Part shown: piece by piece, positions 5,323 to 31,675 of the stretch
Layout of the letters: each line of letters starts with the position of its first letter
Numbering within the stretch: position 1 is the stretch's first letter
Assembly: GCA_024398965.1 (NCBI GenBank)
Contig: JAKSIF010000029.1
Span: forward strand, 1 to 33,378
DNA length: 33,378 bases
Direction of reading: 5' to 3'
Source of the DNA: Fibrobacter sp.
Lineage (GTDB): Bacteria; Fibrobacterota; Fibrobacteria; Fibrobacterales; Fibrobacteraceae
Notes under the pieces: generated by a model
The model's input: only the letters and a program-made list of their open reading frames with translations
Told to the model about the DNA's origin: nothing
Databases searched by the model: none
Translations under genes and position numbers: made by a program

Positions 5323-5346
5323 GCTTCAAGGGCGTATAAAATTAAG

Positions 5347-5375: not shown

Positions 5376-5396
5376 GTATGATGGCAGACGCTTAGG

Positions 5397-9257: not shown

Positions 9258-11255
9258 ATGAAAAAGTTTAAGGCGAATTATTTTAAGATTGGATCGGCTT
9301 TTGCCGCATCAGTCCTTTCCCTTGGTTTATTGGCTTGTGCCGGTAGCAGTAATAGTGAGAATTCGGGGGCTGTTCCTCCGGCTGTCGCGGAAATGCGTGC
9401 TGCAAACGCAGTTCCCGCGGATATGCCTCGGTATGAGGCACCGTCTGCCCCGGTGACCATTTTTGAATTGAAGGCCGTTGATAAGAATAAGCAGGTCCGT
9501 GTGGTGGATAAGCCGACACTTGCCGCCCTGGATTTTGCAGCCTATTATTTCAACCCCATACGCATGGCGGGCAAGGATGAAACTCCGGAAAATTATGCCG
9601 GGAAAATGAAGGATGCTAAACTTGCTCAGTATCCTTTCGCCATGCTGGATTCCTTGACGGAATATGAACCCAAGGCTGTCGCGAGATTGCATCCCGTGGC
9701 ATGGGAACCCTTCTCAAAGGTTCTTTATGCTCAGACGGGGTCAGATTCTTTGGCGACTTTGATCAATAGCGTAGAGGCAGTAAAGTGGGATGAACCGGAG
9801 GTGTTCCGCAGTTTCCAAAATGTAACCCGTTTGTGGGGCGTTCCGTCCAGCAATCCCAAAGCCGGTTCTAATGCTATTGACTGGTGGGTGGAAGTTCTTC
9901 CTGCGCAATGGACTGGTCGCAATGTCTTTTACGGAAAGCTTCGATTGACATCAACCGGAGAAACCGCAGAAATATTGAATTTCTACTTGACGGGGGAGAT
10001 GAACTTGGATGAAGCCCAGAACTGGGCTAGGACACTATCCTCATACTGGTATCCTACTTTGAACACGGACTTGGAGCCCCATACAGCGGGAGCCCCCTGG
10101 GAAGGTAACAAGCCTTTTGCTGTGATGCGTGGAAATCCCATGGGCGAACCAATGTGGATTGCGTTCGAGGTTCCTGAGTTCCGAATGAGCGAGGAGGCCT
10201 TGAGAGCCAAGGCTGTGGCGGATTCCCTTGCCGCCAATGGCGAGGTTGTTCCTGTGGATCGTCATCTTGATACAAGTTCCACCTTCCGCCTGGAAACGTT
10301 GAAATCGCTGGAGGGATCTTGCCCGTCCAATGACGCTACGGTAAAGTTCCAGAAGGAGTTGGCCACACGCATGGCTAAGCTTCCAAAGGAACAGAATGCC
10401 TGGTCTGAAAATGGAATGCTTTGGTTCCGCCGTAATGCCAACTACCTGCTGGCAGACAAGATCAGCGGTCAGGACAGCCTTCATAATCCGCTGCCCCGCA
10501 TGCTGGAACTGAAGCAGTATCTGGATTCTATCGGAGTGCAGCTGCTTGTGGTTCCTGTTCCTGTGAAGGAAGAAATCTATGCGGAAAAAATGGTGCCGGG
10601 AACAGCTTCTGACTTGTGCGTAGCTACTGCCGGGCATGAATTCGTCCGTGAAATGCTTGCCGCGGGAATTGATGTGCTGGATGTATATCCGGCGCTGATG
10701 GCTGCCAAGGCAGGCGATGAAGGAACTCGTTACAGCTACCAGCGTTACGATACCCACTGGGCGTTGCCTGGCATGCTTGCTGCCATGGAACAGCTGGCCA
10801 GCCGCGTGACGCAGTATTCCTGGTATGAGGAGTCCGGAGCACAGCCCGGTAGCCTGAACCTTCAGGAAACGAAGACTCTGCGTGAAGGCGACCTGGTTGC
10901 CCATTTGCCGGATGCTGAAAAGTCGAAGTATCCTGCGGATACCCTCGATGTGATGAAGGTTTACAAGGGTACCGAAGCCTACAAGGGTGGCAAGAATGCT
11001 CCGATCCTCCTGATGGGTGATTCCTTTACAGGCGTGTTTGAAAGCGTTGACCAGAAAAGCGGTGGCCCTGGCTCCTTGCTGGCTTATGCTACAGGCCTTG
11101 ACGTACAGGTTGTTACTAGCTGGGGCGGCGGCCCTGGCGTTCGCAGCCGTATGATGAAGATGAAAAAGGACATGCAGAGCAAGCGCCTGGTTATCTATAT
11201 GATGACCGCAAGAGATTTCTGGCAGTCTCCCATGGAATGGGATGCTCTTCGCTAG
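9258..11255 (+). CDS. AlgJ/AlgX-like SGNH lipoprotein (putative polysaccharide O-acetylation factor)
   Basis: 665 residues with a lipoprotein signal (Leu-Leu-Ala-Cys, Cys27) and a Ser/Asn-rich linker. The N-terminal ~330 residues match nothing I recognise. The C-terminal half resembles the AlgJ/AlgX SGNH fold: Val-Pro-Val-Pro-Val-Lys-Glu-Glu-Ile-Tyr strand, Tyr-Asp-Thr-His-Trp (Asp498, His500) and later Leu-Met-Gly-Asp-Ser-Phe (Ser589). The order Asp-His then Ser is that of AlgJ and AlgX, which pass acetyl groups to alginate in the periplasm. No membrane acetyl donor (AlgI-type MBOAT) is in the window, so a partner would lie elsewhere. The frame extends to a TTG at 9216, but the ATG at 9258 begins the signal peptide. 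It is the first gene of the long plus-strand gene run, 30 nt before the transglutaminase-like gene. The substrate is unknown. Confidence 0.75.
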   Translation: MKKFKANYFKIGSAFAASVLSLGLLACAGSSNSENSGAVPPAVAEMRAANAVPADMPRYEAPSAPVTIFELKAVDKNKQVRVVDKPTLAALDFAAYYFNPIRMAGKDETPENYAGKMKDAKLAQYPFAMLDSLTEYEPKAVARLHPVAWEPFSKVLYAQTGSDSLATLINSVEAVKWDEPEVFRSFQNVTRLWGVPSSNPKAGSNAIDWWVEVLPAQWTGRNVFYGKLRLTSTGETAEILNFYLTGEMNLDEAQNWARTLSSYWYPTLNTDLEPHTAGAPWEGNKPFAVMRGNPMGEPMWIAFEVPEFRMSEEALRAKAVADSLAANGEVVPVDRHLDTSSTFRLETLKSLEGSCPSNDATVKFQKELATRMAKLPKEQNAWSENGMLWFRRNANYLLADKISGQDSLHNPLPRMLELKQYLDSIGVQLLVVPVPVKEEIYAEKMVPGTASDLCVATAGHEFVREMLAAGIDVLDVYPALMAAKAGDEGTRYSYQRYDTHWALPGMLAAMEQLASRVTQYSWYEESGAQPGSLNLQETKTLREGDLVAHLPDAEKSKYPADTLDVMKVYKGTEAYKGGKNAPILLMGDSFTGVFESVDQKSGGPGSLLAYATGLDVQVVTSWGGGPGVRSRMMKMKKDMQSKRLVIYMMTARDFWQSPMEWDALR

Positions 11256-11285
11256 ATTATGGCTTGAGGCTTCTCCACTTACAAA

Positions 11286-12020
11286 ATGAAACTGTTGAAA
11301 AAGCTTGTTCCCGTAGTATTGTTCCTCATGGCAGTGGGGGCGCTGTATGCCTTATGGGGTGGCTTTGGTGGCAAGGTCAGTTATCGTGACATGGCCTGTG
11401 GTTTTGAGGAACGTCCCTTGAATTGCCTTGATTCCATTGACGAATGGAATAGGGGACTTGTCTTTTATGATTCTACGTTGTCTGTAACAAATGATACTTT
11501 GGGGGCGTTGAAGTCTCTTTTATGGGAATTCTGGAATATTGAATTTGCTGGCGCAGGGGAGGCCGCCGTTTCGCGGGAATCCATTTTACCCTTGCAGGTC
11601 TTGCAAACGAAAAAGTCTGGCTGCATGGGGCTTTCCTGGCTTGCCATGATGGTTGCTGAATCTCGAGGCATTGCCCTAAATACAGTTCTACTTCCGGGAC
11701 ATGTATTTTTACGGTATGGCGGCAATGGTGATTCGAAAGAATCCATAAATTTGGAACCCAATCGTCGGGGACATTCTTACAAAGATGAGGAATACCGCCA
11801 AAAGTACGAAAATGGTCCTTGGACCGGGATGGAATTTAAGCCTTTGACTTCTGCACAATTTATGGGCTTGGCTGCCTTTGACATAGGAAATCTGTACTTG
11901 GATTCTGACGTTCGAAAGGCCTTGACCTGGTATCGTGTTGCCGAGGATTTCTTTCCTGAATATCCGGGGATTTCTACCAACCAGAAGATTGCGAAAAGTC
12001 GTTTGCCAGATCGTTTGTAA
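11286..12020 (+). CDS. Transglutaminase-like (SirB1-type) membrane-anchored protein
   Basis: 244 residues. An N-terminal hydrophobic helix (about 7-24) acts as anchor or signal. A transglutaminase-like core of the Transglut_core2/SirB1 kind follows: Ser-Gly-Cys-Met-Gly-Leu-Ser (Cys113), Leu-Pro-Gly-His-Val-Phe-Leu-Arg-Tyr (His139), and Ile-Asn-Leu-Glu-Pro-Asn (Asn155/Glu157), giving a plausible Cys-His-Asn/Glu triad. The last 50 residues look like one or two TPR helices (Ala-Leu-Thr-Trp-Tyr-Arg-Val-Ala-Glu), as in SirB1-type proteins. The family fold supports protease, amidase or crosslinking activity on proteins or peptides, but many members have no known substrate. The ATG at 11286 has no strong ribosome site. 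It sits between the AlgX-like gene and copy 2, which suggests work in the same envelope process. Confidence 0.75.
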   Translation: MKLLKKLVPVVLFLMAVGALYALWGGFGGKVSYRDMACGFEERPLNCLDSIDEWNRGLVFYDSTLSVTNDTLGALKSLLWEFWNIEFAGAGEAAVSRESILPLQVLQTKKSGCMGLSWLAMMVAESRGIALNTVLLPGHVFLRYGGNGDSKESINLEPNRRGHSYKDEEYRQKYENGPWTGMEFKPLTSAQFMGLAAFDIGNLYLDSDVRKALTWYRVAEDFFPEYPGISTNQKIAKSRLPDRL

Positions 12021-12065
12021 TGGCCTTGAATGCTGAATAATTCTATCTTTTGAAAGAGTGTTCAG

Positions 12066-12071
12066 TAGGAG
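12066..12071 (+). promoter_or_regulatory. Ribosome binding site deciding a TTG start
   Basis: TAGGAG lies five bases before the TTG at 12077. The upstream TTG at 12050 in the same frame has no such site and would add nine residues with no role in the signal peptide. I therefore start copy 2 at 12077. Confidence 0.6.
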
Positions 12072-12076
12072 AAAAA

Positions 12077-14899
12077 TTGGGCTATTCCTGTTTAAAAAAA
12101 TCGCTTGCCGTAAGTGTTTTTTTTGCATTCTTGACGGCATGTGGAGACGATAAAAGTTCTTCTTCAAATGGAGAAGAACTTTACAGTTCGTCTGCTCTTA
12201 CTGAAGATACAAAGTCGTCTTCATCTAGGGAACTTGATTCCGTAGAAATGATTCCAGGATTTGCTTTTGTAGAATCGCAGGGCAAGAGTGTAAAGCTAGG
12301 AACATTCAATGAAAATGCCAAAGCCATTGAACGCCCCCAGATGCAGGTGGATTTTAGTTACGATTTTTATCTAGGTGTTCATGAGGTGTCTTGCGGAGAG
12401 TACCGGGATCTATCCCAGGCAGAAAACGTGGACGGTTGTGAAAACGATTCTCTTCCTGTAACGAACATTTCTTTTTATGATGCGGTTCTCTTTGCCAATG
12501 CCTATAGCAAAAAGCTCAAACTTGATACCGTGTATTCCTACACTTCTGCGAAGTATGATCAGGAGGGGCATTGTACCTCGTTAGAAGATTTCTCTTTCCG
12601 TAATGAGGCTATAGGCGTTCGCTTGCCTACGGAAGCCGAATGGACCTATGTTGCCCAGGGCCATTGGAATCCCTCCGATGGATGGACTTTGGAAAACTCA
12701 AAGAATGTACGACACAAGATATGTACTGCACAGGATGTGTCTGACTCGTCAAATGTTTTCTGCGACATGGCCGGCAATGTAATGGAGTGGATGAATGATT
12801 GGTTAGGCTCCTTTAAGGAAACCTCGGTTACCAATTATGCAGGAGCTCCGGATGGAGGCAACCTTGGTCAAAGAGTTGTAAAGGGAGGAAGTTTCCGCAA
12901 TCCTTCGGATGCGATTAATCTATTCAATCGTGGAGATGTTTATGCGGTTGTATCGTCCTCTAGGGCTGATTATGTGGGCTTTCGTTTGGCCATAGGTGCA
13001 ATTCCCGATGCTGTTTGGATTGGGGCCGATGGCCAGGCTGTTAACTACAGAATTACTCCTGTAGCAAGTGGTTCGGAGGTAAAGAACCTGACGAAGGCTT
13101 ATTCTGCAAAGTTAGCCTTTCGTAATGATGTTACCGGAAATTTGGCTTTTATAGATTATCAGGACGGGACTCCTACTGTTATTGAAATCAGGGATACCAT
13201 TGATTCCTACCATCCGGAAATTTCGCCGGATGGCCGTTATGTCGCATTCTGTACAGGGCTAGAAGGCGTTGGGACCAGTTCAAAAATTTACGTAAGACAC
13301 CTGGATGAAAAGGGTAGCGGCTTAATTGTTCTTGATGTGAAAGGTGCCGCGATACCTCGTTGGCGGATTACAGAAAAAGGCGATACGGTCATAGTCTTTG
13401 TGTCAAGTGCAGGGAATAATGAAAATGAGAGTTCCTTCCTGGAACAGTCCACTTGGATGGTTTCTTTTGAAGGGGGTAAATTCGGATCGCCTCAAAAGCT
13501 GTTCGAGGGGGCTTATCACGGGGGCGTTGACCTGGAACGGAATATTGCAGTAACGGGGGCTCGTCGCTTGCGTGCCTATAGAAATGGCTCTCATGAGGTT
13601 TGGTATAATGGGGAACAGGCATGCAATGTTTCTTTATCCCAAGATGGCTTGAACCAAACCTTGTTCCTTGATTTTGCGGGAAAGACGGGCCGAGACTTTG
13701 TAGGGAAATCCTACCGAACGCACGAACGCTTGTTTATTGCGGATAGCACAGGAAAATTGGTGCAGTCGATTTCTGCACCTTCAGCCTTGACTTTTGATCA
13801 TTCTGAGTGGGTTTCTCGCGGAGATAATGCTGTAGCGACCTTGGTCAATTCTGAAGGCGCTCACGAACGGATTGTTCTGGTGAATTCTGAGAATGGTTCC
13901 ATTACAACTCTTGTTCTGGGTGATGAATTGTGGCATCCCAATCTTTGGGTGGAACCGATTGATACCGTTGCAGAACATGCTGCCGCATTCCGGGATAGCG
14001 CAGGTGTCTATTATTCAAGTATTTCAGCTAGCCATCATCTTTCTTATAGGATGGAGATGCTGTGGAGAATGGCAGATATGCTTGAAATAGTTGGCCTTGG
14101 AAATTCCCACATGGCTGCAAGTTTTTGTGCGTCAAGAATGAAAATGCAATCCTTGAATGCGGCAACCATGCCAAGCGATATGCATGTGAATTTATTCCTT
14201 TTCAAGAATTATCTAGTTCGCTTTTGCCCCAAGCTGAAATATGTGATTCTAGGATTGGACTTTGATTTGTGGGATGCTAAGGACGCAAACCGAGATATTG
14301 ACTTGAACATTGGAGACGCTCCTGGATTTGCCTATGACGCAAATCATGGCTACTGGTCAGAAGGGGTTTCTGAGGAATTCCTTGAAAAAGTCAAGACTTC
14401 CGTGGTGAAGGATGGAATCTACAATAGCATTCAGTCATCAAAGGGTTTTGTCCATCAAAATTACTACATAGGCTGGTCTGTAGGCGACGATCATTCTGTG
14501 GAAATTCTCAGTGATTCCACATGGAGCGATGATCCCTTAACTTACGAAGATGATTTGGCTGCACTGGATGAATTTATCCAGATTGCCAAGGAACATCACA
14601 TTACTGTAATTGGCTCGGTGACTCCAATCAGCCCCTATTATCAAAATACGGGAGCCTATAGTCGACATGGAATGAGAAGATCCTGCGCCTATAAGATTTA
14701 TGATCGTATCAAGGTCCAGGCAGATTCCACAGAAAACTTTATTCTGTTTGATGAAAACCATTTTGGAAACCATGATTACGGGGATGACCTGTCCCATGAT
14801 TATGATCACTTGAATACGATGGGCGCCGTGAAGTTTACGTCTCGTCTGGATTCACTAATTCAGACTTTGGAAGGCCGCATTTCTGCGGAAGAGAGGTGA
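12077..14899 (+). CDS. Fibrobacter paralogous lipoprotein, copy 2
   Basis: 940 residues from the TTG at 12077 (TAGGAG five bases upstream). Lipobox Leu-Thr-Ala-Cys (Cys22), then Gly-Asp-Asp and a Ser-rich linker to about residue 55. The FGE-like domain has Arg-Leu-Pro-Thr-Glu-Ala-Glu-Trp near 182 and Cys-Asp-Met-Ala-Gly-Asn-Val-Met-Glu-Trp near 229, and no catalytic Cys pair. The propeller runs from about 345 to 625. The SGNH-like region is the odd one: the usual Gly-Ser-Ser-Arg is Gly-Asn-Ser-His (Ser677), and the end keeps Asp910-His911. A C-terminal tail past the last helix is longer than in the other copies. First of six contiguous paralogues, 56 nt after the transglutaminase-like gene; its stop overlaps the ribosome site of copy 3. 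Confidence 0.87.
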   Translation: MGYSCLKKSLAVSVFFAFLTACGDDKSSSSNGEELYSSSALTEDTKSSSSRELDSVEMIPGFAFVESQGKSVKLGTFNENAKAIERPQMQVDFSYDFYLGVHEVSCGEYRDLSQAENVDGCENDSLPVTNISFYDAVLFANAYSKKLKLDTVYSYTSAKYDQEGHCTSLEDFSFRNEAIGVRLPTEAEWTYVAQGHWNPSDGWTLENSKNVRHKICTAQDVSDSSNVFCDMAGNVMEWMNDWLGSFKETSVTNYAGAPDGGNLGQRVVKGGSFRNPSDAINLFNRGDVYAVVSSSRADYVGFRLAIGAIPDAVWIGADGQAVNYRITPVASGSEVKNLTKAYSAKLAFRNDVTGNLAFIDYQDGTPTVIEIRDTIDSYHPEISPDGRYVAFCTGLEGVGTSSKIYVRHLDEKGSGLIVLDVKGAAIPRWRITEKGDTVIVFVSSAGNNENESSFLEQSTWMVSFEGGKFGSPQKLFEGAYHGGVDLERNIAVTGARRLRAYRNGSHEVWYNGEQACNVSLSQDGLNQTLFLDFAGKTGRDFVGKSYRTHERLFIADSTGKLVQSISAPSALTFDHSEWVSRGDNAVATLVNSEGAHERIVLVNSENGSITTLVLGDELWHPNLWVEPIDTVAEHAAAFRDSAGVYYSSISASHHLSYRMEMLWRMADMLEIVGLGNSHMAASFCASRMKMQSLNAATMPSDMHVNLFLFKNYLVRFCPKLKYVILGLDFDLWDAKDANRDIDLNIGDAPGFAYDANHGYWSEGVSEEFLEKVKTSVVKDGIYNSIQSSKGFVHQNYYIGWSVGDDHSVEILSDSTWSDDPLTYEDDLAALDEFIQIAKEHHITVIGSVTPISPYYQNTGAYSRHGMRRSCAYKIYDRIKVQADSTENFILFDENHFGNHDYGDDLSHDYDHLNTMGAVKFTSRLDSLIQTLEGRISAEER

Positions 14900-14902
14900 C
14901 AT

Positions 14903-17638
14903 TTGAAATCGACAAATTGGTTCGTGTTGGTATGTTACCTTTTGATGATCGCTTGTAGCGATGATTCCAGTTCTATTGCCTCTTCGCCTGAAGATTCTCC
15001 TGTAGAAACGAAACCCGACCGTACTTATGCGGATTTTGTTTCTGTAAAATCCAAGGGAAAAGAAGTAAATCTTGGAACGAATGACAGCAAGGCCAGGGCC
15101 AGCGAGCGCCCTTTGATGACGGTGAAGTTCGATTACGATTTCTCCATTGCCTCCCATGAAACCACCTGTGGAGAGTTCAGGTCGCTGATGGGAGATCGTG
15201 TGAAGGACCTTCCCTGCGATGAAGATTCCCTGCCTGTTGCAAACGTGACTTTCTTCGATGCGGTACTCTACGCCAATGAAATGAGCAAGACGTACGAACT
15301 GGATACGGCTTATACCTATCGAAGCCTTGTTCTGGATGAAGATGGTCATTGTGTTTCCATGGAAGGTTTTAGATTAAATCCTGCAATAAATTCTTTCCGT
15401 TTGCCAACGGAAGCTGAATGGGTTTTGACGGCGGGCCTGGATTGGAATCCAAAGGATGCCTGGAATAAGAATAATGCTAAAATGACTGCCCATAGGATTT
15501 GTTCGACGCCTAAAGCTTCGGCCGTTTGCGATATGGCGGGCAATGTGATGGAATGGGTTAATGACTGGATGGGTCCTTTTAAGGATACCACTATCAGTAA
15601 CTTTGGCGGAGCTCCTGATGGAGGTTCCCTAGGGGAACGAATTCTAAAGGGCGGAAGCTTCCGAATATCCCCTGAATCAATGAAGTTGTATTCTCGCGGG
15701 GATGTGTATACGGTAACATCTTCGACTCGAGCTAATTATGTTGGATTCCGTCTGGCTTTGGGCTCTATTCCTGACATGTCCCTGATTGGTCGAGATGGTG
15801 GAATTATAGAAGGGCGAGTATCGCTCTTGGCGAATGGTTCGGCAATCCAGACCATGATTGGTAAGAGCAAGATGAAGCTGGCTTTTAGAAATGACGTCTC
15901 CGGAAACCTTGTTTTTGTAAGGTATTTTGCAGGGGATGTTGTGATGACTGAAATTCGCGATACCCTGGATGTTTACCATCCTGAGATTTCTCCTGACGGG
16001 GGACGTGTTGCCTTTAGCTCTAAGTACGAAGGCGTTGGTGGAACGTCGCAACTGTATGTTCGAAACCTGGATAAGAACGGATCAGGCCTGGTGAAGCTGG
16101 ATGTGGAAAGCGCTGCCATTCCCCGTTGGCGGGTTACGGCGAATGGCGATACTGTGATTGTTTATGTAGATGATTCCGGAAATAATAAAAACGACGGGGA
16201 TTTCCTGGATAAACACACCTGGCAGGTAAAGTTTAGCGGGGGGAAGTTTGGCAAGCCTGAAAAATTATTCGCTGGCAATTATCATGGAGGTGTTAATTCC
16301 GATGGTTCGCTTGCCGTAACAGGAGCCAGACTTTTAAGGGCTCGTGTATCGGGAAAAGAGAAATTATGGTATGATGGCGAACAGGCTTGCAATGTGTCGC
16401 TGTCCAATGATGGGCATAGTCGCACATTGTTCCTTGACTTTGGCGGAAAGAAAGGCCATGACTTTGTGGGCGAGGATTACAAAACCCATGGCCGCTTGCT
16501 ATTGGCCGACAGTGTTGGAAAATTGATAGGTTCTGTAGCTTCTCCCGAGGGCTATACCTTTGACCATTCGGAATGGGCTTTAGGCAACGTGCAAAAAAAG
16601 GATGCTGAAGAACGTTTTGCCGTGACATCGCTAACCAATGTAAATGGCGCTCACGAAAAGATTGCCTTGATAGATGTTGAAAGCGGAGATGTCCTGGAGC
16701 TTGTGGAAGGCGACGAATTGTGGCATCCGTCTTTCTGGAAATCCTATGATTTTCAGCAGGATGGTGATGTAAATCTGGATAGTGCAGGCGTTTACTATTC
16801 TCCATTAAAACCTTCTGCCTTTGAATCGTCTTCTATAGAGCTGGGCATCAAGATGTCTCGTTTCTGGACAAGTTATGAAAATCTGGAGTATGTCGCTTTT
16901 GGTAGCTCCATGACTTTAAATTCCATTGATGAAAAGAACATAAAGACCTATAAGGCCTTAAACATGGCTTTCACTCTAGGCGATATTCATTGTTTTGCCT
17001 ATCTACTCAAGCATTATGTGTATCCTTATGCAAAGAAGCTGAAGGTTGTATCTCTTGAATTGACACCTGGATTCATGTATCGTGAAAGGGATGATTTTTG
17101 GAAGGAACTTTACGAAAAATCCCCTGGTTTTGTGTATGACGAAATTCATCCGGAACAGTTCAAGACTGTGTCTAGCCTGGCCCAGGACGCGATTTATCCA
17201 GAAGATGGCTTTGTTTCGGAATATATTGACGACAATTTCTTGCTGCCATCCCGATCCTGGCTGAATTATGATGTACTTGTGGATACAACATCCATGTCTA
17301 TGGATAACGAAAATGTTCAGGCTAATCTTTCGATTTTGCAGGATCTCAAGAACATTGCCGATTCCCTGGGGGTAAAACTGTTTATGAATGTGACACCCCG
17401 AAATCCAAAATATGCCAAAACGGGGTCTTTTGGCATCTATGGGCCCAGCAGGACTGTGACTGCAACCATGATGGATACAATTCGCGGAATGGATATTTCT
17501 ATTTTTGATGAGAATAAGGATGGCCTGCACGACTATACCGATGAAATGGCCTATAATGCAGTTCACTTGAGCTATTTAGGGGCAAAACAATACACTGAAC
17601 GGCTAGATAAATTCTTAAAGGACCTTGATGAAAAGTAG
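14903..17638 (+). CDS. Fibrobacter paralogous lipoprotein, copy 3 (Asp of the C-terminal dyad lost)
   Basis: 911 residues from a TTG at 14903; GAGAGG just upstream (14891-14896) ends inside the stop region of copy 2, so translation is probably coupled. Lipobox Met-Ile-Ala-Cys (Cys18) followed by Ser-Asp-Asp and a short Ser/Pro linker. FGE-like motifs near 165 (Leu-Pro-Thr-Glu-Ala-Glu-Trp) and 209 (Cys-Asp-Met-Ala-Gly-Asn-Val). Propeller about 324-613. The SGNH-like part starts with Gly667-Ser668-Ser669, but the following Arg is Met, and the terminal Asp-His is Val887-His888. The residues after the first strand read Leu-Glu-Leu-Thr-Pro-Gly-Phe instead of the Ser-Leu-Asp-Phe-Asp-Leu-Trp type, a variant shared with copy 5. 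This copy may have lost SGNH chemistry while keeping the fold. Confidence 0.87.
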   Translation: MKSTNWFVLVCYLLMIACSDDSSSIASSPEDSPVETKPDRTYADFVSVKSKGKEVNLGTNDSKARASERPLMTVKFDYDFSIASHETTCGEFRSLMGDRVKDLPCDEDSLPVANVTFFDAVLYANEMSKTYELDTAYTYRSLVLDEDGHCVSMEGFRLNPAINSFRLPTEAEWVLTAGLDWNPKDAWNKNNAKMTAHRICSTPKASAVCDMAGNVMEWVNDWMGPFKDTTISNFGGAPDGGSLGERILKGGSFRISPESMKLYSRGDVYTVTSSTRANYVGFRLALGSIPDMSLIGRDGGIIEGRVSLLANGSAIQTMIGKSKMKLAFRNDVSGNLVFVRYFAGDVVMTEIRDTLDVYHPEISPDGGRVAFSSKYEGVGGTSQLYVRNLDKNGSGLVKLDVESAAIPRWRVTANGDTVIVYVDDSGNNKNDGDFLDKHTWQVKFSGGKFGKPEKLFAGNYHGGVNSDGSLAVTGARLLRARVSGKEKLWYDGEQACNVSLSNDGHSRTLFLDFGGKKGHDFVGEDYKTHGRLLLADSVGKLIGSVASPEGYTFDHSEWALGNVQKKDAEERFAVTSLTNVNGAHEKIALIDVESGDVLELVEGDELWHPSFWKSYDFQQDGDVNLDSAGVYYSPLKPSAFESSSIELGIKMSRFWTSYENLEYVAFGSSMTLNSIDEKNIKTYKALNMAFTLGDIHCFAYLLKHYVYPYAKKLKVVSLELTPGFMYRERDDFWKELYEKSPGFVYDEIHPEQFKTVSSLAQDAIYPEDGFVSEYIDDNFLLPSRSWLNYDVLVDTTSMSMDNENVQANLSILQDLKNIADSLGVKLFMNVTPRNPKYAKTGSFGIYGPSRTVTATMMDTIRGMDISIFDENKDGLHDYTDEMAYNAVHLSYLGAKQYTERLDKFLKDLDEK

Positions 17639-23098: not shown

Positions 23099-23100
23099 GT

Positions 23101-25869
23101 ATGAAGAACTTGAAATTCTTATATGTGCTGATTCTAGGGCTGCTATATGGTTGCAGTTCCGATGGCTCCTTGTCGGCTCATGAGGATTCTGCGTACGAAT
23201 CATTTAAGGTGTCTACAGAACAGGACCAGGCCCATGAGGGAATGGTTCGTGTCTTAGCCAAGAATACGACCTATTATGTAGGAACCGATGAGGAAACGGC
23301 CAAGGCTAACGAAAAACCGAAAATGAAGGTCAAGTTTGGCTACGACTTTTCCATAGGAATTCATGAAGTTACCTGCAGGGAAATGGGTGAGGACTTTTGC
23401 TCGAAAGATACTGAGGATTATGCCAACCTGCCTGTGGTATATGTGACCTATTTCGATGCCGTTCTGTATGCGAATAAACGCAGTGTTGAAGAAGGCTTGG
23501 ATACAGCCTATACCTATGGAAAGGCTTCCTATGATGAAGAAGGCCGTTGCATCGGTCTTTCTGACTTGAAATTTAAACCGGACGTGAACGCCTATCGCCT
23601 GCCAACAGAAGCAGAATGGATGCTGGTTTCCTCGGGAAGTTGGAATCCCGCAAAAAGCTGGAACAGCTCCAATTCCGAATTCAAGCGGCATCCTGTTTGC
23701 TCTGCAGATACTTCGGGCATGCCTGTTTGTGACATGGCTGGTAATGTGTCGGAATGGGTGAATGACTGGTTAGGATATTTTGCTGATACTGTAATGACCA
23801 ACTTTGCAGGAGCCTTGAATGAAGGTAGTGTCGGTGAACGTGTTTTGAAGGGCGGAAGTTTCCGTAACGGCGAGAAGAATCTGTTCCGCTATAGTCGCGG
23901 CGATATCTACACTGTGGTTTCTTCCATGAAGGCGGAGTATGTGGGTTTCCGCCTGGCTTTTGGTTCTATTCCTAAGGCATCTTTCCTAAGTGGCAAGAAT
24001 ACCGCTTCGCCTGGAAATTATAACATGGTTGCCTCTCTGACGGATTTACGTCAGGCTACAGGAACCTATCAGACAAAGTTCGCCTTTAGAGATGACGTAA
24101 CGGGAAACCTTGTTTTCGTAGATGGCCATAGCGGAAATTACGATTTTGTTGTCATCGAGGATTCTATTGAAGTTTATCATCCCGAAATTTCTCCAGACGG
24201 CAAACGTGTGGCCTTTTGCTCAAAGCAGGAAGGCGTTGCTGGAGTTTCTAAGCTGTTCGTCCGAGATTTGAATGCTTCTGGCAGTAACCTGGTTCAACTT
24301 GATGTAGAAAGCGCCGCCATTCCTCGCTGGAGAATTCTTGACAACGGTGATACGGTTATCGTCTACGTATCGGACGCTGGGGTGAATTCTGAGGAATCCA
24401 GATGGATGGAAAAATCCACTTGGCAGGTGAAATTCTCCGGAGGCAAGTTCGGAAAAACGCAAAAGCTTTTTGATGGATCGTTCCATGGGGGAGTCAGCGA
24501 GGACGGTTCTCTTGCAGTGACGGGCGCAAGACTGCTTCGGGCTCGTCTTATGGAAAGCTCTATGCAGACCGGAGAAAACCTGGTGTGGTATGGCGAAGAG
24601 CAGGCTTGCAATGTGTCTCTTTCTCGTGATGGTTCGAAACGGACGTTGTTCTTGGATTTTGGAGGCCGCACGGGACATCAGTTTGTAGGCGAGAGTTACA
24701 GGACTCATCAGAATCTTCTTGTTGTAGATAGTACCGGAGACCTTGTTCAGCACGTTGCTGCGCCGGCCGGCTATAGCTTTGATCATACGGAATGGGCTGT
24801 CGGCAGTGAATCGGCTGGAGGAGAAAATCTAGTTGTGGCGACTTTGACAAATGGCAACGGGGCGCATACAACAATCGTTCTGGTCGATATGGATTCAGAG
24901 AAGGTTATTCCCCTTGTGGAAGGTGATGAACTTTGGCATCCGTCGTTGTGGGTGAAATCTGTGAATAAGTCTGCTAATGGAATAAGCCTAGATAGCGCTG
25001 GCGAGTACTTGACGGAATTCCATGATTCAGAACAGGCTCTGTATAGGCATAAGCTTGGTTTGTTCTGGAAAAACTTCGACGAAACAGAAATTCTGCTGGT
25101 AGGCAGTTCCAGAACGGAATGGGGCCTTAATCCAGACCTGTATCCGGAAAGAAAAATGCTCAATGTGGGAGTCTCCGGAATTGACATTGGCCGTGATCTG
25201 TATTTTATCAAGAATTATGGATTGAACCATGGGAAAAACCTGAAGGCCATTGTCTTGTCTGTAGATTTGGATGGATGGCGTGGTTACGAGGACCATCTGG
25301 AGTTGGTGATGGTTGCGGGCTCTGGCTATACTTACGATGCTAACCATGGTTTTTGGGCGGATTCCATTCCCGAAGGTTTTTTGCAGGCTGTAGAAGATGG
25401 CTTGCCTGCAGATGATTTTGTAACAAAGGATTACACGGAAGCGGGGGGTCGTTGTAGAGAGTCTGTTTCATGGACGTCGGCTCCCATTGAAGTGGTCTTT
25501 GATTCTGTATTTACACCGAGTCAGGAAAAGTATCTTGATGGAAAATTGAAGGAATTGAAAGAGGTTGTGGAAATGGCCTCAAAGAGAGATATTTACGTAA
25601 TTGGAATTGTATTCCCGCAGGCTCCTCAATACAAGAATACAGGAAGCTTTGGGGTTTATGGCTTGCAGAGAAGCGTTGCCAAGAAGAAATTGCAGTGGTT
25701 GGATTCTCTAGCCAAGGAAAACTCTCATTTTGTTCTGATGGATGAATACAAGATGGGCGACCATGACTATCCAGACTATATGGCTCTTAATCGAGATCAT
25801 TTAAGCTGTGAAGGTGCGGAACAGGTAACCAACCGTTTGGTGGATAAGCTAGATTCTCTCATGAAATAA
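23101..25869 (+). CDS. Fibrobacter paralogous lipoprotein, copy 6
   Basis: 922 residues, starting 2 nt after the stop of copy 5, with a weak AAAGAAG ribosome site inside the end of that gene. Lipobox Leu-Tyr-Gly-Cys (Cys18) then Ser-Ser-Asp-Gly and an acidic, Ser-poor linker. The FGE-like domain departs from the others at several usually constant places: Thr-Cys-Arg-Glu instead of Thr-Cys-Gly-Glu, Val-Tyr-Val instead of Val-Ala-Asn-Val, Asn-Val-Ser-Glu-Trp near 213, and Ala-Leu-Asn-Glu-Gly for Ala-Pro-Asp-Gly-Gly. Propeller about 326-617. SGNH-like part with Gly668-Ser669-Ser670-Arg and Asp899-His900. The strand after it reads Ser-Val-Asp-Leu-Asp-Gly-Trp, the main subtype. Confidence 0.87.
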   Translation: MKNLKFLYVLILGLLYGCSSDGSLSAHEDSAYESFKVSTEQDQAHEGMVRVLAKNTTYYVGTDEETAKANEKPKMKVKFGYDFSIGIHEVTCREMGEDFCSKDTEDYANLPVVYVTYFDAVLYANKRSVEEGLDTAYTYGKASYDEEGRCIGLSDLKFKPDVNAYRLPTEAEWMLVSSGSWNPAKSWNSSNSEFKRHPVCSADTSGMPVCDMAGNVSEWVNDWLGYFADTVMTNFAGALNEGSVGERVLKGGSFRNGEKNLFRYSRGDIYTVVSSMKAEYVGFRLAFGSIPKASFLSGKNTASPGNYNMVASLTDLRQATGTYQTKFAFRDDVTGNLVFVDGHSGNYDFVVIEDSIEVYHPEISPDGKRVAFCSKQEGVAGVSKLFVRDLNASGSNLVQLDVESAAIPRWRILDNGDTVIVYVSDAGVNSEESRWMEKSTWQVKFSGGKFGKTQKLFDGSFHGGVSEDGSLAVTGARLLRARLMESSMQTGENLVWYGEEQACNVSLSRDGSKRTLFLDFGGRTGHQFVGESYRTHQNLLVVDSTGDLVQHVAAPAGYSFDHTEWAVGSESAGGENLVVATLTNGNGAHTTIVLVDMDSEKVIPLVEGDELWHPSLWVKSVNKSANGISLDSAGEYLTEFHDSEQALYRHKLGLFWKNFDETEILLVGSSRTEWGLNPDLYPERKMLNVGVSGIDIGRDLYFIKNYGLNHGKNLKAIVLSVDLDGWRGYEDHLELVMVAGSGYTYDANHGFWADSIPEGFLQAVEDGLPADDFVTKDYTEAGGRCRESVSWTSAPIEVVFDSVFTPSQEKYLDGKLKELKEVVEMASKRDIYVIGIVFPQAPQYKNTGSFGVYGLQRSVAKKKLQWLDSLAKENSHFVLMDEYKMGDHDYPDYMALNRDHLSCEGAEQVTNRLVDKLDSLMK

Positions 25870-25885
25870 ACTTGATGGATTGTTG

Positions 25886-28690
25886 ATGTCTTTTCGGAAT
25901 AACTGTTTCCCTTATGTGTGCCTAGTTTGCGTATTCCTATTGTGGGGATGCGATACTGGGTCGTATGGGGATTTTGCGGAACTGGACTATTCTGCCATCA
26001 AGACGGGAGTTGACGCCGAACGTGAAGGTATGATTCTTGTAAAGGCGAATGGATCCCACGGAAGAATTGGTACTAATGGTCCTAAGGGAATGCCTGTGGA
26101 AATGCCCTCCATGAGAGTGAGCTTTGACTATGATTTTTCCCTGGGAAAGCATGAGGTGACATGCGCAGAGTACAAGACGTATTCAAAGGAATGGACTAAG
26201 TTATTTGATTGCGAACATTCCGACAATCCTGTTGCAAACGTGACGTTCTTTGATGCGGTGCTTTATGCGAACGCAAGAAGTAAGGATGAGGGCTATGACA
26301 CGGCCTACAGTTACACCGGTATGAATTTTGACTCTGAGGGAAATTGCATCGGTTTGGATGGCTTAGAGTTTAATCCGGATAAGGATGCCTATCGCTTGCC
26401 TACTGAAGCAGAATGGAGCCTGGCTGCTGCTCAGGGATGGTCTTCGGGAAAAAGCTGGAATAGCCGAAATTCTGAATACAGAACCCATAAGGTCTGTACC
26501 AAGCCTGAAAACGAGGTGGGATTTTGCGACATGGCAGGCAATGTCATGGAATGGGTAAATGACTGGAAGGGCTGTTTCAAGGATACGTCCTTGTCGAATT
26601 TTGCCGGCGCTCCTGATGGAGGCCGTCTTGGTGAACGCGTTGTGAAGGGCGGCTCCTATCGCAATGAATCCAATGCCATCAATCTGTACAGCCGAGGCGA
26701 TGTTTATACAGTGACCTCCTCGACTAAGGCGGACTATGTGGGCTTTAGGATTGCCTTCGGAGCCATTCCTGAACCATCTTGGATGGGGCTGGATGGTCAG
26801 CCTGTGGAAAGTCGCGTGCTTTTACGAACCTTGGCTGATGAGGTCCAGAGAAAAACAAGGCGAAACAACGTGATTCTAGCCTTCCGCAATGACATCTCTG
26901 GAAATATCGCTTATGTGAGATATGGATTTACTCCGTTGTCTGTTATAGAAATTCACGACACCCTGGATGCGTACCATCCCGATGTTTCACCTGACGGATC
27001 CAAGGTTGCCTTCTGTACAAAGCCGGAAGGTGTGGGCGGTGAATCCGCTATATATGTTCGAACGTTGAGCTCAACAAGCAAGAAACCCATAAAGCTGGGA
27101 CTGGTAAATGCCGCTATTCCTCGCTGGAGAGTTCTGGACAACGGCGATACCGTGATTGTATTTGTTAGCGATGCCGGAAACAACAAGAATGAATCCGCCT
27201 GGAAGCAGGAATCAACCTGGCAGGTGAAATTCATGAACGGAAAGTTTGGACGCCCTGAAAAGCTGTTTGATGGAACCTACAATGGCGGCGTCAGCTCTGA
27301 CAATCGTTTGGCGGTTTCTGGAGCGAGGTTGCTGCGTGTAAGCCAGGAGGATTCCTCTGGCGTTTCCCGCGAGACATTGTGGTACAACGGTGAACAGGCT
27401 TGCAACGTTTCCTTGTCAAACGACGGCTCGAATCGAACCCTGTTCCTTGACTTTGCTGGAAATACAGGCAAGGATTTTGTAGGGGAGAGTTACAAGACTC
27501 ACCAACGCCTTTTGATCGCCGACAGTACTGGCAAACTTGTACAGTCTGTTGGCGCTCCGGATGGCTATACCTTTGACCATAGCGAATGGGCCTCTGGCGA
27601 AATCATTCGGGGCGAAACCGATGGCATTGCGGTAGCAACCTTGACGGGTTCCGATGGAAGCCATAAGAAAATTGTCTTGGTGGACCTTAAGGACAGTTCC
27701 GTGATGACGCTTGCAGAAAGCGATGAACTTTGGCACCCTAGTTTAAGGATTGTTCCGCTAGGTATACCGGAAAATTCAAAGCTTGATCCCGACAGTGCCG
27801 GGCTTTACATTGGTGATAAACAGGATAACGAATCTGTTATTTGGCGCTACAAGATGGAATTGTTCTGGCAGTATTACAACAGTACAGAAATTCTTGTGGT
27901 CGGTTCCTCTAGGGCCATGGCAGGCGTGAATCCGGGAGCCTTCAGAAGTGGCTATTCCGCCTTGAATATGGCCCAAACTCCCAACTCCATTTATACTTCC
28001 AGAGATTTCATGCGGAACTATGGCTTTACCCACATGAAAAATCTGAAGTACCTGATTGTTTCTTTGGATATTGATTTCTGGTGGAAGGCCGACGATGAAG
28101 AGGAAAATATCTTTAAGAATCGGTATGAACAGTACCCGGGATTTCTCTACGATTCCCATCATGATTTCTGGAAGGATGGATACCCGGATGGCCTGCTGGA
28201 ATTAACGAGACAGGCTACCGGCAATGAGATTGGGGGCTTGTATACCTTGTATAAGGGCGTTGACAGAGGTACTCACTGCCTTGGCTTTGGCGGCCCCTAT
28301 CCCGAAGTGAATTTCGATAGCACCTACTTTGACAAGCGCCCGGAACTTATTGACAACTCCCTTGCCGCAGTACAGGACATGATTTTGGATGCGAAGAAAC
28401 ATGATGTCCATGTTATTGGAGTCCTGTTCCCTCAGAGTCAGTATTACCTAAGTACGGGAGCCTACGGTCGCTACGGATTGAGACGCAGTAAAGCTGCCGA
28501 CGTGGTCAAGAGAATCCGTGAACTGGAAAAGAAAAATTCCAACTTCACCTTGTTCGATGAAAATAAGATGGGCAATCACACCTACGACAACAAGCAGGCT
28601 CACGACTTTGACCATCTTTGTCTTGATGGCGCAACATTCCTGGCGTCGCGACTAGACACCCTTATTACCAAGATAGACCAAAAGAAATGA
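25886..28690 (+). CDS. Fibrobacter paralogous lipoprotein, copy 7
   Basis: 934 residues from the ATG at 25886, which directly follows two TTG codons (25880, 25883) that are possible but poorer starts; the gap to copy 6 is 16 nt. Lipobox Leu-Trp-Gly-Cys (Cys22), then Asp-Thr-Gly, with no Ser-rich linker. FGE-like motifs near 170 and 213. Propeller about 331-621, with changes at otherwise constant sites: Tyr-His-Pro-Asp-Val-Ser for Tyr-His-Pro-Glu-Ile-Ser, and Ser-Asp-Glu-Leu-Trp-His-Pro-Ser-Leu-Arg where all others have Gly-Asp-Glu at the start and Trp at the end. SGNH-like part Gly673-Ser674-Ser675-Arg, Asp909-His910. The end overlaps the start of the membrane-protein gene by 4 nt (ATGA). Confidence 0.87.
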   Translation: MSFRNNCFPYVCLVCVFLLWGCDTGSYGDFAELDYSAIKTGVDAEREGMILVKANGSHGRIGTNGPKGMPVEMPSMRVSFDYDFSLGKHEVTCAEYKTYSKEWTKLFDCEHSDNPVANVTFFDAVLYANARSKDEGYDTAYSYTGMNFDSEGNCIGLDGLEFNPDKDAYRLPTEAEWSLAAAQGWSSGKSWNSRNSEYRTHKVCTKPENEVGFCDMAGNVMEWVNDWKGCFKDTSLSNFAGAPDGGRLGERVVKGGSYRNESNAINLYSRGDVYTVTSSTKADYVGFRIAFGAIPEPSWMGLDGQPVESRVLLRTLADEVQRKTRRNNVILAFRNDISGNIAYVRYGFTPLSVIEIHDTLDAYHPDVSPDGSKVAFCTKPEGVGGESAIYVRTLSSTSKKPIKLGLVNAAIPRWRVLDNGDTVIVFVSDAGNNKNESAWKQESTWQVKFMNGKFGRPEKLFDGTYNGGVSSDNRLAVSGARLLRVSQEDSSGVSRETLWYNGEQACNVSLSNDGSNRTLFLDFAGNTGKDFVGESYKTHQRLLIADSTGKLVQSVGAPDGYTFDHSEWASGEIIRGETDGIAVATLTGSDGSHKKIVLVDLKDSSVMTLAESDELWHPSLRIVPLGIPENSKLDPDSAGLYIGDKQDNESVIWRYKMELFWQYYNSTEILVVGSSRAMAGVNPGAFRSGYSALNMAQTPNSIYTSRDFMRNYGFTHMKNLKYLIVSLDIDFWWKADDEEENIFKNRYEQYPGFLYDSHHDFWKDGYPDGLLELTRQATGNEIGGLYTLYKGVDRGTHCLGFGGPYPEVNFDSTYFDKRPELIDNSLAAVQDMILDAKKHDVHVIGVLFPQSQYYLSTGAYGRYGLRRSKAADVVKRIRELEKKNSNFTLFDENKMGNHTYDNKQAHDFDHLCLDGATFLASRLDTLITKIDQKK

Positions 28691-30099
28691 ACCTTTTCTG
28701 GCCTGCCCTTGTAATCCTTACTGCTGCGTTTTCCGTATTTCCTTTGACAGATACGGATATCTGGTGGCATTTGGCATGTGCTAGAGAATGGGTTACGACA
28801 TGGACTCCCGTAAGGACCCCCGTTGTCAATGTCCATGAGTATTTTCAACTGGTTTCCGGGTTTGTTTTCGATTTAGGAGGGGCACCCCTGCTGGTTGCGC
28901 TTAAGTCTCTGCTATGGGGACTTGTATTCGGCTTATTCCTGTGGCCCATAAGAACGCAGATAAAATGGATTCCATTTGTATTATCAGCGGCGCTTCTATT
29001 CCTGCTCCGTTACCAGATGGAAATGCGACCGGTGCTTTTTTCGCTACTGTTCCTGGGCTTGTACTGGAACATTCTGCCGCTGTTTTTCAGGGATGGTTCT
29101 AAACTTAAGAAGTCCCTGGTGCTTATTTCATTACTAGTACTGCAGTGGATCTGGTGCAAGACGCAGGGCTTATTCCCGCTAGGCGTAGCCTTTGCGGTTG
29201 GGCTCGGCTTGACCCGATTTTTTGAAAAGGCTAGCGGCCCTAGGATGATTTCATCTCGGCAATGGGGTGCTTACGTTATGTTTGTCCTGCTACTTCTGGC
29301 GATGCCATTTTTACATGAAGAAGGCTTACGTCTTTTTCTGTACCCCTTTGGCTTGCTAGAACGTTTGTTGGGCTTAACCTCTTCCGCCGTGGTCTTTTCG
29401 CAGGAAATCGCGGAAAATCGTTCCCCAGTAACGTTGCTTATGGAAAGTGAAAACGTCGTTACTTCGTTAACGATGGTTCTAATGTCGCTTCTCGCTTTTG
29501 CGGGGGCGTTCTACCTGCGGAAATCCAACGCTTTTCTTTCGGTCTGTCTTTTTGCTACCGCATGCCTTGCAATGATTGCGGAACGGAATGGAATCTTGAT
29601 GTTGCCTGTTTTCTGCGTAGCTCTTCAGAGAATCCCGTTTGCTTGCAGTGGACTATGGAAAAAGACAATCCTTGTTGTTTTGATGGCTTTGCTCGGCGTA
29701 TGGGTTCGGTCGATGTTGGCCTATGACGCGTCCATGATTTCATACCAGCGAGTCCCTGTGGAAGCCGCGGAATGGATGAGGAATAATCCCCATCAGGGGC
29801 GCTTGTTTAATGACGATCGAGCTGGCGGGTATCTGGCCTTTGTGAATCCTTCTGACTCCATTTATATAGACGGACGGTTCATATTGAAAACATCGGATTT
29901 CTTTCAGCAGTACTTAGGTTTTGCTGAAAACCCTGAAGCCTTTATGCGGTACGCTGATTCCCTTGGTATTGATCGAACCTTGTTCCCGTTGCGTTATTAT
30001 GCCCGTTGGGGGAAAGTCATTGACTCGCTGGTTGAAAATGAACAGTGGTTCTTGGCTTATCGCGATGAGTATTTTTGTGTTTTTCAACGAAATTATTGA
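28687..30099 (+). CDS. Polytopic GT-C-like membrane protein, unknown substrate
   Basis: 470 residues. About nine or ten hydrophobic helices fill residues 5 to about 345. The first loop carries Asp-Thr-Asp-Ile-Trp-Trp-His-Leu (22-29), like the acidic loop-1 motif of GT-C glycosyltransferases and their uncharacterised relatives. The last ~120 residues are soluble, probably extracytoplasmic, with Leu-Phe-Asn-Asp-Asp-Arg-Ala-Gly-Gly-Tyr near 371 and Ile-Asp-Gly-Arg-Phe near 396, a pattern I associate with large uncharacterised GT-C-like proteins. GT-C enzymes use lipid-linked sugars, so a glycan role is plausible, but no catalytic assignment can be made. The start at 28687 overlaps the stop of copy 7 (ATGA), so its product is probably made together with the paralogues. 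It is the last gene before the terminator. Confidence 0.7.
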   Translation: MNLFWPALVILTAAFSVFPLTDTDIWWHLACAREWVTTWTPVRTPVVNVHEYFQLVSGFVFDLGGAPLLVALKSLLWGLVFGLFLWPIRTQIKWIPFVLSAALLFLLRYQMEMRPVLFSLLFLGLYWNILPLFFRDGSKLKKSLVLISLLVLQWIWCKTQGLFPLGVAFAVGLGLTRFFEKASGPRMISSRQWGAYVMFVLLLLAMPFLHEEGLRLFLYPFGLLERLLGLTSSAVVFSQEIAENRSPVTLLMESENVVTSLTMVLMSLLAFAGAFYLRKSNAFLSVCLFATACLAMIAERNGILMLPVFCVALQRIPFACSGLWKKTILVVLMALLGVWVRSMLAYDASMISYQRVPVEAAEWMRNNPHQGRLFNDDRAGGYLAFVNPSDSIYIDGRFILKTSDFFQQYLGFAENPEAFMRYADSLGIDRTLFPLRYYARWGKVIDSLVENEQWFLAYRDEYFCVFQRNY

Positions 30100-30166: not shown

Positions 30167-31675
30167 TTACTTGAGGCTGATGGCCTTGACCAGGCTCTGA
30201 TTGCCGGCCTTGACGCGAATCATGTACTGACCTGCAGGGAGGGCTGCCATGGAAAGGCTTCCGTTTACTCCAGAAATGCTGAAGAGCTTGTTACCCTGCA
30301 TGTTGAATACTTCCACTTCTGCAGCAGAAACTCCAGAGATGTGGAGAGTCTTGCTTTCAAAGGCCACATTCATGCTTGCGGTGTGGAAGTTGATGATTGC
30401 CTGGTTGTTGGGGTCCCAGGGATTGGTGTTACCCTGGTTACCGTTGTTATTGCCCCACTGGTTGTTGGGATCCCAGGGATTGGTGTTGCCCTGATCGCCA
30501 TTGTTGTTTCCTGTGTTACCCTGGTCTCCGGTATTGGTGTTACCTTGGTCTCCACCTTGCTGTCCATTCTGGTTGCCGTTGCCTGTGGGGCAAGCAGTGT
30601 ACGAGGTGGGGTTGGTGGCCAGGTAACCCTTGACAAGGTTGCCAGAGGTGGTGTAGCTGAGGCTTGTCTTGTTGGAGCCACCGCCGAATGCTGCGGTGCC
30701 TTCGCTAATGTGGGATGCGGACCAGTTTGCCCAGGAAAGCTTGTACTTGTTGATGAAAGTCTGCCACTGGGTGTTTTTGTTTTGGTCGGGAGTGCCACCG
30801 CCGTTGGCATCGCCGGTTCCCCATTCGGAGACGAATACGGAAAGACCCGCCTTGATTGCCTTTTCGCCGTTAGAGCCTTCGCAGCCTCCACCCCAGTCAT
30901 AGTTGCCGCTGACGCAGTGGCTGTTGGCGTAGTAGTGCAGGGTGTAGGCGGTGTTCTTCTTGCTGTCGGTAACTTCCTTACCAATGACTTCTTCCGGGTG
31001 CTGGTCCCAAGCGCGGGTACCCACGAGAATCAGGTTGTCGGAGTACTGGCGGATGGTGGGGATAATCTGGTTGGCGTAGTTCTTAATGTTGTCCCAGGAA
31101 ATGTCCGTGGGTTCGTTGAACAATTCAAAGATCACGTTGTCATACTGGCCGTAGGTTTTGGCCATTTCTTCGAAAAATCCCTTTGCGGATGAAACCTGAT
31201 CGGTTGCATTGTGGCTGTGCCAGTCGATAATAACGTAGATGTCGTTCTTGATGGCTGCTTCAACGACAGCCTTCATCAAGTTCTTCTGAAGGGTTGGATT
31301 CGTGCCGTAGCCCTGAAGCTTCTGTCCATTGTATTCGCCGGACCAGTCTTCAGAACCGGTAGCCATGGCGGCACGGACAATCTGGATGTTCATGTCGCGG
31401 ACCATGGTAGAGACACCTTCTTCACTCCAGTATTCGACGGCTTGTGGCATCAGGCTCCAGTAAAGACTCATACCACGAACCTGGACTTCGGCGCCGTCCT
31501 TCACGCCTTCGCAAGAACCGTAAATGCGGCCTTCACCGGCGGAATTCTTGCCGGTCATGAGCTGGCCGTATTGGCTAACGGGGCCTACGCGGGTGGAGGA
31601 AATCGTTTGGGCGGAGGCCAGGCCAAAACCTAAAGTCATGGCACAGGCGAGAGCGGGAATGGACAAGAATTTCAT
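30167..31675 (-). CDS. GH5 endoglucanase (cellulase) with linker and C-terminal sorting-type domain
   Basis: 502 residues. Signal peptide 1-22 (Leu-Ala-Ser-Ala). The catalytic domain (about 30-355) is a glycoside hydrolase family 5 barrel, most like subfamily 2 bacterial endoglucanases: Val-Arg-Gly-Met-Ser (Arg67), Ile-Asp-Trp-His-Ser-His, Phe-Glu-Leu-Phe-Asn-Glu-Pro (acid/base Glu188), Leu-His-Tyr-Tyr-Ala (His247), Val-Ser-Glu-Trp-Gly (nucleophile Glu284). It cleaves beta-1,4-glucan in cellulose. Then comes a Gly/Asn/Gln linker (about 363-420) with a repeated Asn-Pro-Trp-Asp-Pro-Asn-Asn unit. The last ~75 residues are a small beta domain (Asn-Met-Gln-Gly, Leu-Pro-Ala-Gly-Gln-Tyr) of the type IX secretion sorting kind common in Fibrobacter. 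The frame is open from 31696, but the ATG at 31675 has GAGGA five bases upstream and starts the signal peptide. No carbohydrate-binding module is visible. Confidence 0.93.
   Translation of the reverse strand: MKFLSIPALACAMTLGFGLASAQTISSTRVGPVSQYGQLMTGKNSAGEGRIYGSCEGVKDGAEVQVRGMSLYWSLMPQAVEYWSEEGVSTMVRDMNIQIVRAAMATGSEDWSGEYNGQKLQGYGTNPTLQKNLMKAVVEAAIKNDIYVIIDWHSHNATDQVSSAKGFFEEMAKTYGQYDNVIFELFNEPTDISWDNIKNYANQIIPTIRQYSDNLILVGTRAWDQHPEEVIGKEVTDSKKNTAYTLHYYANSHCVSGNYDWGGGCEGSNGEKAIKAGLSVFVSEWGTGDANGGGTPDQNKNTQWQTFINKYKLSWANWSASHISEGTAAFGGGSNKTSLSYTTSGNLVKGYLATNPTSYTACPTGNGNQNGQQGGDQGNTNTGDQGNTGNNNGDQGNTNPWDPNNQWGNNNGNQGNTNPWDPNNQAIINFHTASMNVAFESKTLHISGVSAAEVEVFNMQGNKLFSISGVNGSLSMAALPAGQYMIRVKAGNQSLVKAISLK
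30401..30494 (-). repeat. 57-bp-period direct repeat in the cellulase linker
   Basis: Two 37-bp copies (30401-30437 and 30458-30494) differ at three positions and sit 57 bp (19 codons) apart. They encode the repeated Gly-Asn-Thr-Asn-Pro-Trp-Asp-Pro-Asn-Asn part of the linker. In-frame repeats of this kind can expand or contract by recombination. Confidence 0.75.

Follow-up and report, generated by a model that had tools for sequence, protein, structure and literature searches.

An AlgX-family and GT-C gene cluster with an inserted TIGR02171 lipoprotein array in Fibrobacter: part of a putative split system for envelope-glycan acylation

The stretch of DNA analyzed here (“the window”: 33,378 nt, contig JAKSIF010000029.1 of the Fibrobacter sp. 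assembly GCA_024398965.1) comprises all of contig C29 of a 3.59-Mb source genome (G000), or its first part, and carries at 9258-30099 a run of nine genes, all on the + strand, from the ATG of an AlgX-like gene at 9258 to the stop codon of a GT-C gene ending at 30099. We consider it probable, at roughly 60%, that an AlgI/J/X-like relay acylates an envelope glycan in these bacteria, that the genes for this relay have been split apart in Fibrobacter, and that the lipoproteins of family TIGR02171 encoded within the run have been recruited as acceptor-specific factors. We infer the relay, its acyl group, its glycan and what the TIGR02171 proteins do from gene content and order, co-occurrence across genomes, catalytic residues, an ancestral operon and modeled folds. 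The genes of the run, preceded by a seventh TIGR02171 gene, are as follows:

6111..8963, + strand: seventh TIGR02171 lipoprotein, upstream of the core; SGNH-like domain at 8085-8960
9258..11255, + strand: AlgX-family lipoprotein (AlgXL); lipobox LLAC, C-terminal circularly permuted SGNH domain with DTHW, then GDS
11286..12020, + strand: transglutaminase-like protein (Transglut_core2); N-terminal hydrophobic segment, C113 and H139 invariant
12050..14899, + strand: TIGR02171 lipoprotein 1; FGE/C-type-lectin domain, propeller, SGNH-like domain at 13991-14896
14903..17638, + strand: TIGR02171 lipoprotein 2; SGNH-like domain at 16775-17635, Val replacing the Asp that precedes the catalytic His
17625..20399, + strand: TIGR02171 lipoprotein 3; SGNH-like domain at 19506-20396
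20396..23098, + strand: TIGR02171 lipoprotein 4; structure model with a predicted local distance difference test score (pLDDT) of 89, SGNH-like domain at 22238-23095
23101..25869, + strand: TIGR02171 lipoprotein 5; SGNH-like domain at 24988-25866
25880..28690, + strand: TIGR02171 lipoprotein 6; SGNH-like domain at 27788-28687
28687..30099, + strand: GT-C membrane glycosyltransferase; STT3/PglB/AglB-type modeled fold, DTDIWWH motif

Intergenic gaps across the nine-gene run range from -14 to +30 bp, and the seventh TIGR02171 gene ends 294 bp before the AlgX-like gene. Consensus scans of the gaps within the run, which performed no better than on shuffled sequence, found no terminator-like sites, and a sigma-70 scan was likewise no better than shuffles. 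An earlier note on this DNA, made from the sequence alone, had described the co-linear array with an AlgJ/AlgX-like lipoprotein at one end and a GT-C-like membrane protein at the other, had seen no MBOAT acyl donor in the window, and had proposed a search for a co-occurring MBOAT gene and a look at whether the flanking genes stay beside the array in other Fibrobacter; the description holds, and both searches bore fruit.

The missing MBOAT is encoded elsewhere in the source genome (C14:61716-63131) as a 472-aa AlgI-type protein, with its catalytic H327 in VWHG and the C-terminal tail FLYFQF. An F-x-Y-x-x-F tail is present in every MBOAT orthologue inspected; this acyl-shuttle motif has been shown to work in PatA (PMC12148441). 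Across the genus the 472-aa class is 83-88% identical to the source copy and lacks an SGNH neighbor in the mapped loci; nine Fibrobacter genomes carry it 7-9 kb upstream of the AlgX-like gene, which looks like a half-dispersed state, and otherwise the two are unlinked in Fibrobacter. Among 168 Fibrobacterota genomes, the 472-aa MBOAT and a full-length AlgX-like gene occur together in 94 and are jointly missing from 64, these being raw genome counts with relatedness ignored. The ten discordant genomes (nine with the MBOAT only, one with the AlgX-like gene only) are all fragmented or less than 80% complete: five are 70-77% complete, four have the pair interrupted at the end of a contig (G093, G096, G097, G075), and in G099 the AlgX-like gene is in pieces. 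In two pairs of sister species, each from within one genus (G065/G066 and G076/G077), the MBOAT and the AlgX-like gene differ together.

Another MBOAT of about 620 aa (G000:C55) was set aside as the partner, having two GDSL neighbors of its own and occurring in genomes that lack the cluster. This second class, represented in the source genome at 2367-7675 on the - strand of locus L161 (616 aa, tail FIYFQF, two GDSL-type partners), is a separate acylation operon, its MBOAT being found across the genus. Directly upstream of the orphan 472-aa MBOAT, most genomes encode a protein of 132-170 aa with no family match (10141-10554, - strand, in L157), possibly a small partner.

In deeper lineages the pieces are together. 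Three loci (L297 in G066, L286 in G104 and L287 in G146) have genes for the MBOAT, an AlgJ-like protein, the AlgX-like protein, the transglutaminase-like protein and the GT-C protein in that order and orientation, all on a single strand; the L283 operon differs in lacking the transglutaminase-like gene, and other Fibrobacterota families retain at least the MBOAT with the AlgJ-like and AlgX-like genes. The AlgJ-like gene of the source genome lies at C3:28272; its product has an N-terminal hydrophobic anchor, where the AlgX-like protein is a lipoprotein, and both carry DxH and GDS. Two of the deep loci have genes for sugar epimerases and a family-2 glycosyltransferase next to them, as would suit a GT-C protein that takes its sugar from a polyprenyl-linked donor.

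In the proposed pathway, the AlgI-type MBOAT would load the Tyr of its FLYFQF tail with an acyl group, probably acetyl taken from acetyl-CoA, and from there the inner-membrane AlgJ-like SGNH protein and the AlgX-like lipoprotein would pass it to an extracytoplasmic glycan. The GT-C protein would add a sugar from a polyprenyl-linked donor to the glycan or to its carrier, with the transglutaminase-like protein as a probable accessory. In the Fibrobacteraceae, genes for TIGR02171 lipoproteins were inserted between the transglutaminase-like and GT-C genes; these proteins would be surface-side acyl-transfer or esterase factors, each with a conserved FGE-fold and propeller platform and an SGNH-like domain whose divergence would determine which acceptor is used.

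The AlgX-like protein matches Pfam ALGX (PF16822) over residues 420-645 (E 2.6e-20, 73.6 bits against a gathering cut-off of 26.5), and the Asp-Thr-His-Trp and Gly-Asp-Ser motifs noted earlier lie at residues 498-501 and, as G-D-S-F, at 587-590. This is the permuted H-S order described for the AlgX family (PMC9487903). All 14 orthologues compared, some as little as about 29% identical, keep the catalytic Asp, His and Ser, and a profile search against the PDB returned AlgJ (4o8v, E 5.6e-7) and also AlgX (7ula). The N-terminal approximately 400 aa have no family match and the SGNH domain follows at the C-terminus, so that the layout differs from that of AlgX; nor is this an alginate-type AlgX, given that the PF16822 match stops about 35 residues short of the C-terminus and no C-terminal carbohydrate-binding module follows. 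The transglutaminase-like protein matches Transglut_core2 (PF13369, E 1.4e-8, 34.8 bits, cut-off 23.5), with C113, H139, N155 and E157 invariant in 11 homologues; in-frame stops first reported in this gene in G023, G055 and G057 are terminal stops.

For the 470-aa GT-C protein the structure model (pLDDT 93) confirms an STT3/PglB-type fold: STT3, AglB, PglB, DPY19 and ArnT lead the list of matches (Z 12-17), the best reaching Z 17.3 over 444 residues, and the match to STT3/PglB/AglB is whole-length (Z 13-17 over 415-453 residues). DTDIWWH is near-invariant. By eye, the oligosaccharyltransferase motif WWDYG is not recognizable in the C-terminal domain, which has FNDDRAGGYL at about that place; the fold is thus shown, as a model, and the reaction is putative.

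The earlier note held that its reading would fall if the flanking genes were not conserved next to the array in other strains, and this refutation did not occur. The transglutaminase-like and GT-C genes share one contig in 44 of the 61 Fibrobacter genomes, the order being AlgX-like, transglutaminase-like, a variable number of TIGR02171 genes, GT-C, and in 40 of these 44 the gap between the two is approximately a whole number of copies of about 2.77 kb (one to six copies, mostly three or four). Nine Fibrobacter genomes have no full-length TIGR02171 gene, and the same nine lack all three flanking genes. Locus L214 has the AlgX-like, transglutaminase-like and GT-C genes with no lipoprotein gene between them, and the core is present at 27-29% identity in the deep Fibrobacteria loci L216 and L223, so that the trio flanking the array is older than the array's place within it. 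The earlier proposal that the set assembles, acylates or de-acylates a surface glycan gains from the conserved flanks, the GT-C fold, the MBOAT co-occurrence and the deep operon; acyl transfer or de-acylation by the paralogues themselves we infer.

All seven window lipoproteins match NCBIfam TIGR02171 over their full length at 1103-1206 bits, against a curated cut-off of 544, and the six of the run (about 920 aa) each have a lipobox-like Cys near the N-terminus. The N-terminal part matches Pfam FGE-sulfatase, and in the model of lipoprotein 4 an FGE/C-type-lectin domain (38-285; best match TvpA, 2y3c, Z 27.9; PorK, Z 21.4) is followed by a TolB-like propeller (301-601, Z 21.9). The last approximately 285 residues follow the order of an SGNH domain, namely a strand, G-x-S, an invariant Asn and a His before the last helix, and their modeled secondary structure has the flavodoxin-like order expected of such a fold. 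Ser655, Asn673 and His878 are invariant in 60 of 60 sequences and Asp877 is found in 58, with Val in its place in lipoprotein 2. One or two members each gave below-cut-off hits to DUF1574 (5e-4), SGNH_AT3 (PF19040, 0.0066) and DltD (0.041), the first of these being an SGNH family for which no activity is known (PMC9487903). The earlier description of six SGNH-bearing lipoproteins covers those within the run, to which the upstream seventh is added, and the SGNH-type assignment comes from the order of the motifs, the topology and weak hits to families, not from a fold match.

Sulfatase activation by the FGE domain was rejected, since both active-site cysteines are absent: LCHESYC of FGE aligns with RNESNAI of TIGR02171, and no conserved Cys occurs past residue 204 of the domain. 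The conserved part is the FGE and propeller platform, the pairwise identity of the window paralogues per 50-residue block being 0.41-0.67 there and 0.17-0.42 in the SGNH-like domain. A different and, in our judgment, rather unlikely reading takes this at face value: the core acylates an envelope glycan, and the TIGR02171 proteins are structural outer-membrane scaffolds or ligand binders that dock through their FGE fold and propeller, in the manner of PorK/GldJ of type IX secretion, and whose SGNH-like domain is a binding module. Within the Bacteroidetes-Chlorobi-Fibrobacteres superphylum, PorK is a case of an FGE fold repurposed as a hub for docking (PMC12421860); the likeness of the modeled FGE domain to PorK and TvpA and of the propeller to TolB, together with the missing cysteines, suits such a function. 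The invariance of Ser, Asn and His is, however, hard to square with a pure binding module, and the array sits inside an acylation operon.

On another reading, the TIGR02171 proteins would be surface esterases acting on acylated plant polysaccharides during fiber digestion, placed beside the acylation core incidentally or for co-expression. Fibrobacter does break down acetylated xylan using SGNH-type acetylxylan esterases (PMC9487903), and a GH5 cellulase gene is next downstream in the window, as is a similar GH5-type gene downstream of the GT-C gene in several relatives. We nevertheless regard this as quite improbable: family profile searches gave no carbohydrate-esterase match for the TIGR02171 proteins, many copies lie within a biosynthetic operon in most genomes, and deep-branching Fibrobacterota that lie beyond the gut genus also have full-length homologues.

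Phylogenetic analysis showed that the seven window copies fall in different old lineages common to other species. Changes of locus label on the tree number 91, against 92.6 for shuffled labels, and recent tandem amplification was rejected on this scatter and on the finding that the window copies are mostly not mutual nearest relatives; array position is retained in part (35 changes, where shuffling gives 50.7 and at least 43). This pattern argues for long-kept, different functions of the array copies, and old paralogue lineages with the SGNH-like domain as their most divergent part fit “alternative specificity factors.” Turnover of positions within the array, and the TIGR02171 copies found elsewhere in the source genome, could instead be taken to mean that the linkage of array and core is purely historical, a shared locus and not a shared pathway; we consider this very improbable, as it runs against an order conserved in 44 of 61 genomes with genes overlapping or abutting, and against the joint absence of core and array from nine genomes of the genus.

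Several observations weigh against the proposed acylation system with its TIGR02171 factors. The co-occurrence counts are uncorrected for relatedness, as stated above. The SGNH-like domain found no match in the PDB by sequence, and the fold-search list for lipoprotein 4 was filled by matches to its FGE and propeller domains. The GT-C gene of G059 is detached and sits elsewhere in the genome. The core is present with no full-length TIGR02171 gene in G066, G078 and G063; TIGR02171 genes are present with neither the AlgX-like gene nor the MBOAT in G150, G135 and G060, so the association is not obligatory, and in deeper lineages they are scattered and unclustered. This dispersal, and the occurrence of the family without the core, are what suggest that TIGR02171 genes were recruited to the core in the Fibrobacteraceae.

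The system resembles the alginate O-acetylation relay AlgI-AlgJ-AlgX of Pseudomonas in its MBOAT with an FxYxxF tail, its anchored AlgJ-like SGNH protein and its AlgX-family protein with permuted DxH...GDS, and in having all three genes in one operon in deep Fibrobacterota. Unlike AlgX, the Fibrobacter protein is lipid-anchored by its lipobox and ends in the SGNH domain; and unlike in the alginate system, the partners are the GT-C and transglutaminase-like proteins, no alginate polymerization or export genes being seen at the locus, and in Fibrobacter the genes lie in three loci. The proposed logic of an MBOAT acyl-Tyr shuttle with an SGNH transferase is that of PatA/PatB and WssH/WssI (PMC12148441). 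An MBOAT and its SGNH partner are encoded together in deep Fibrobacterota. To our knowledge, the GT-C partner and the TIGR02171 lipoproteins have no counterpart in PatA/PatB or WssH/WssI. The GT-C protein shares the fold of STT3/PglB/AglB over its whole length at about 10% identity, and the TIGR02171 N-terminal domain that of TvpA and PorK/GldK; unlike in TvpA and PorK, a propeller and an SGNH-like domain follow it in the same chain.

MBOAT-SGNH acylation and TIGR02171 are each already known, the latter as an NCBIfam paralogous family of Fibrobacter succinogenes annotated without function, to which we add the three-domain layout, the SGNH-like residues and the link to an acylation core. We found no mention of TIGR02171 in the literature searched, including a term search of F. 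succinogenes envelope proteomics papers, with subscription journals outside the search; nor did we find there the five-gene core with its GT-C and transglutaminase-like members, its splitting in Fibrobacter, or the TIGR02171 link. Through the core and the orphan MBOAT, this large lipoprotein family of no known function gains a first testable role, and the locus would exemplify an envelope-modification operon split and enlarged through insertion of a paralogue array. The cell surface of these cellulose degraders governs their adhesion to cellulose. A bolder reading, which we hold to be less likely than not, is that one trans-encoded MBOAT serves a strain-variable panel of interchangeable FGE-propeller-SGNH lipoproteins, each strain writing its own acylation pattern on the surface glycan; if so, the pattern that meets plant fiber, phage and host would be strain-specific.

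Further TIGR02171 genes occur around the array. Shortened forms (about 355-380 aa) adjoin the transglutaminase-like gene in L179, L180 and L190, lying before it, next to the AlgX-like gene, in L179 and L190 and after it in L180, and an additional gene 3-5 kb downstream of the GT-C gene in L173, L174, L177, L183 and L210 forms a single clade of its own. A dispersed copy in the source genome (L160, contig C4) adjoins a gene at 346-2463 (+) for a 705-aa lipoprotein with collagen-like repeats. In the deep Fibrobacteria locus L216, the GT-C gene has beside it genes for a Ser/Thr kinase and a protein of the penicillin-amidase family (13355-17935, - strand).

Elsewhere in the window, 2548-5322 (+) encodes a 924-aa secreted protein that is fibro-slime-like by eye and has no Pfam match. 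The GH5 cellulase gene (30167-31696, - strand), convergent with the cluster, encodes a weak type IX secretion sorting tail, and beyond it 31967-33211 (+) encodes a 414-aa protein with PD40/TolB-type repeats, to which a 343-aa protein encoded just after the GT-C gene in L286 looks similar.

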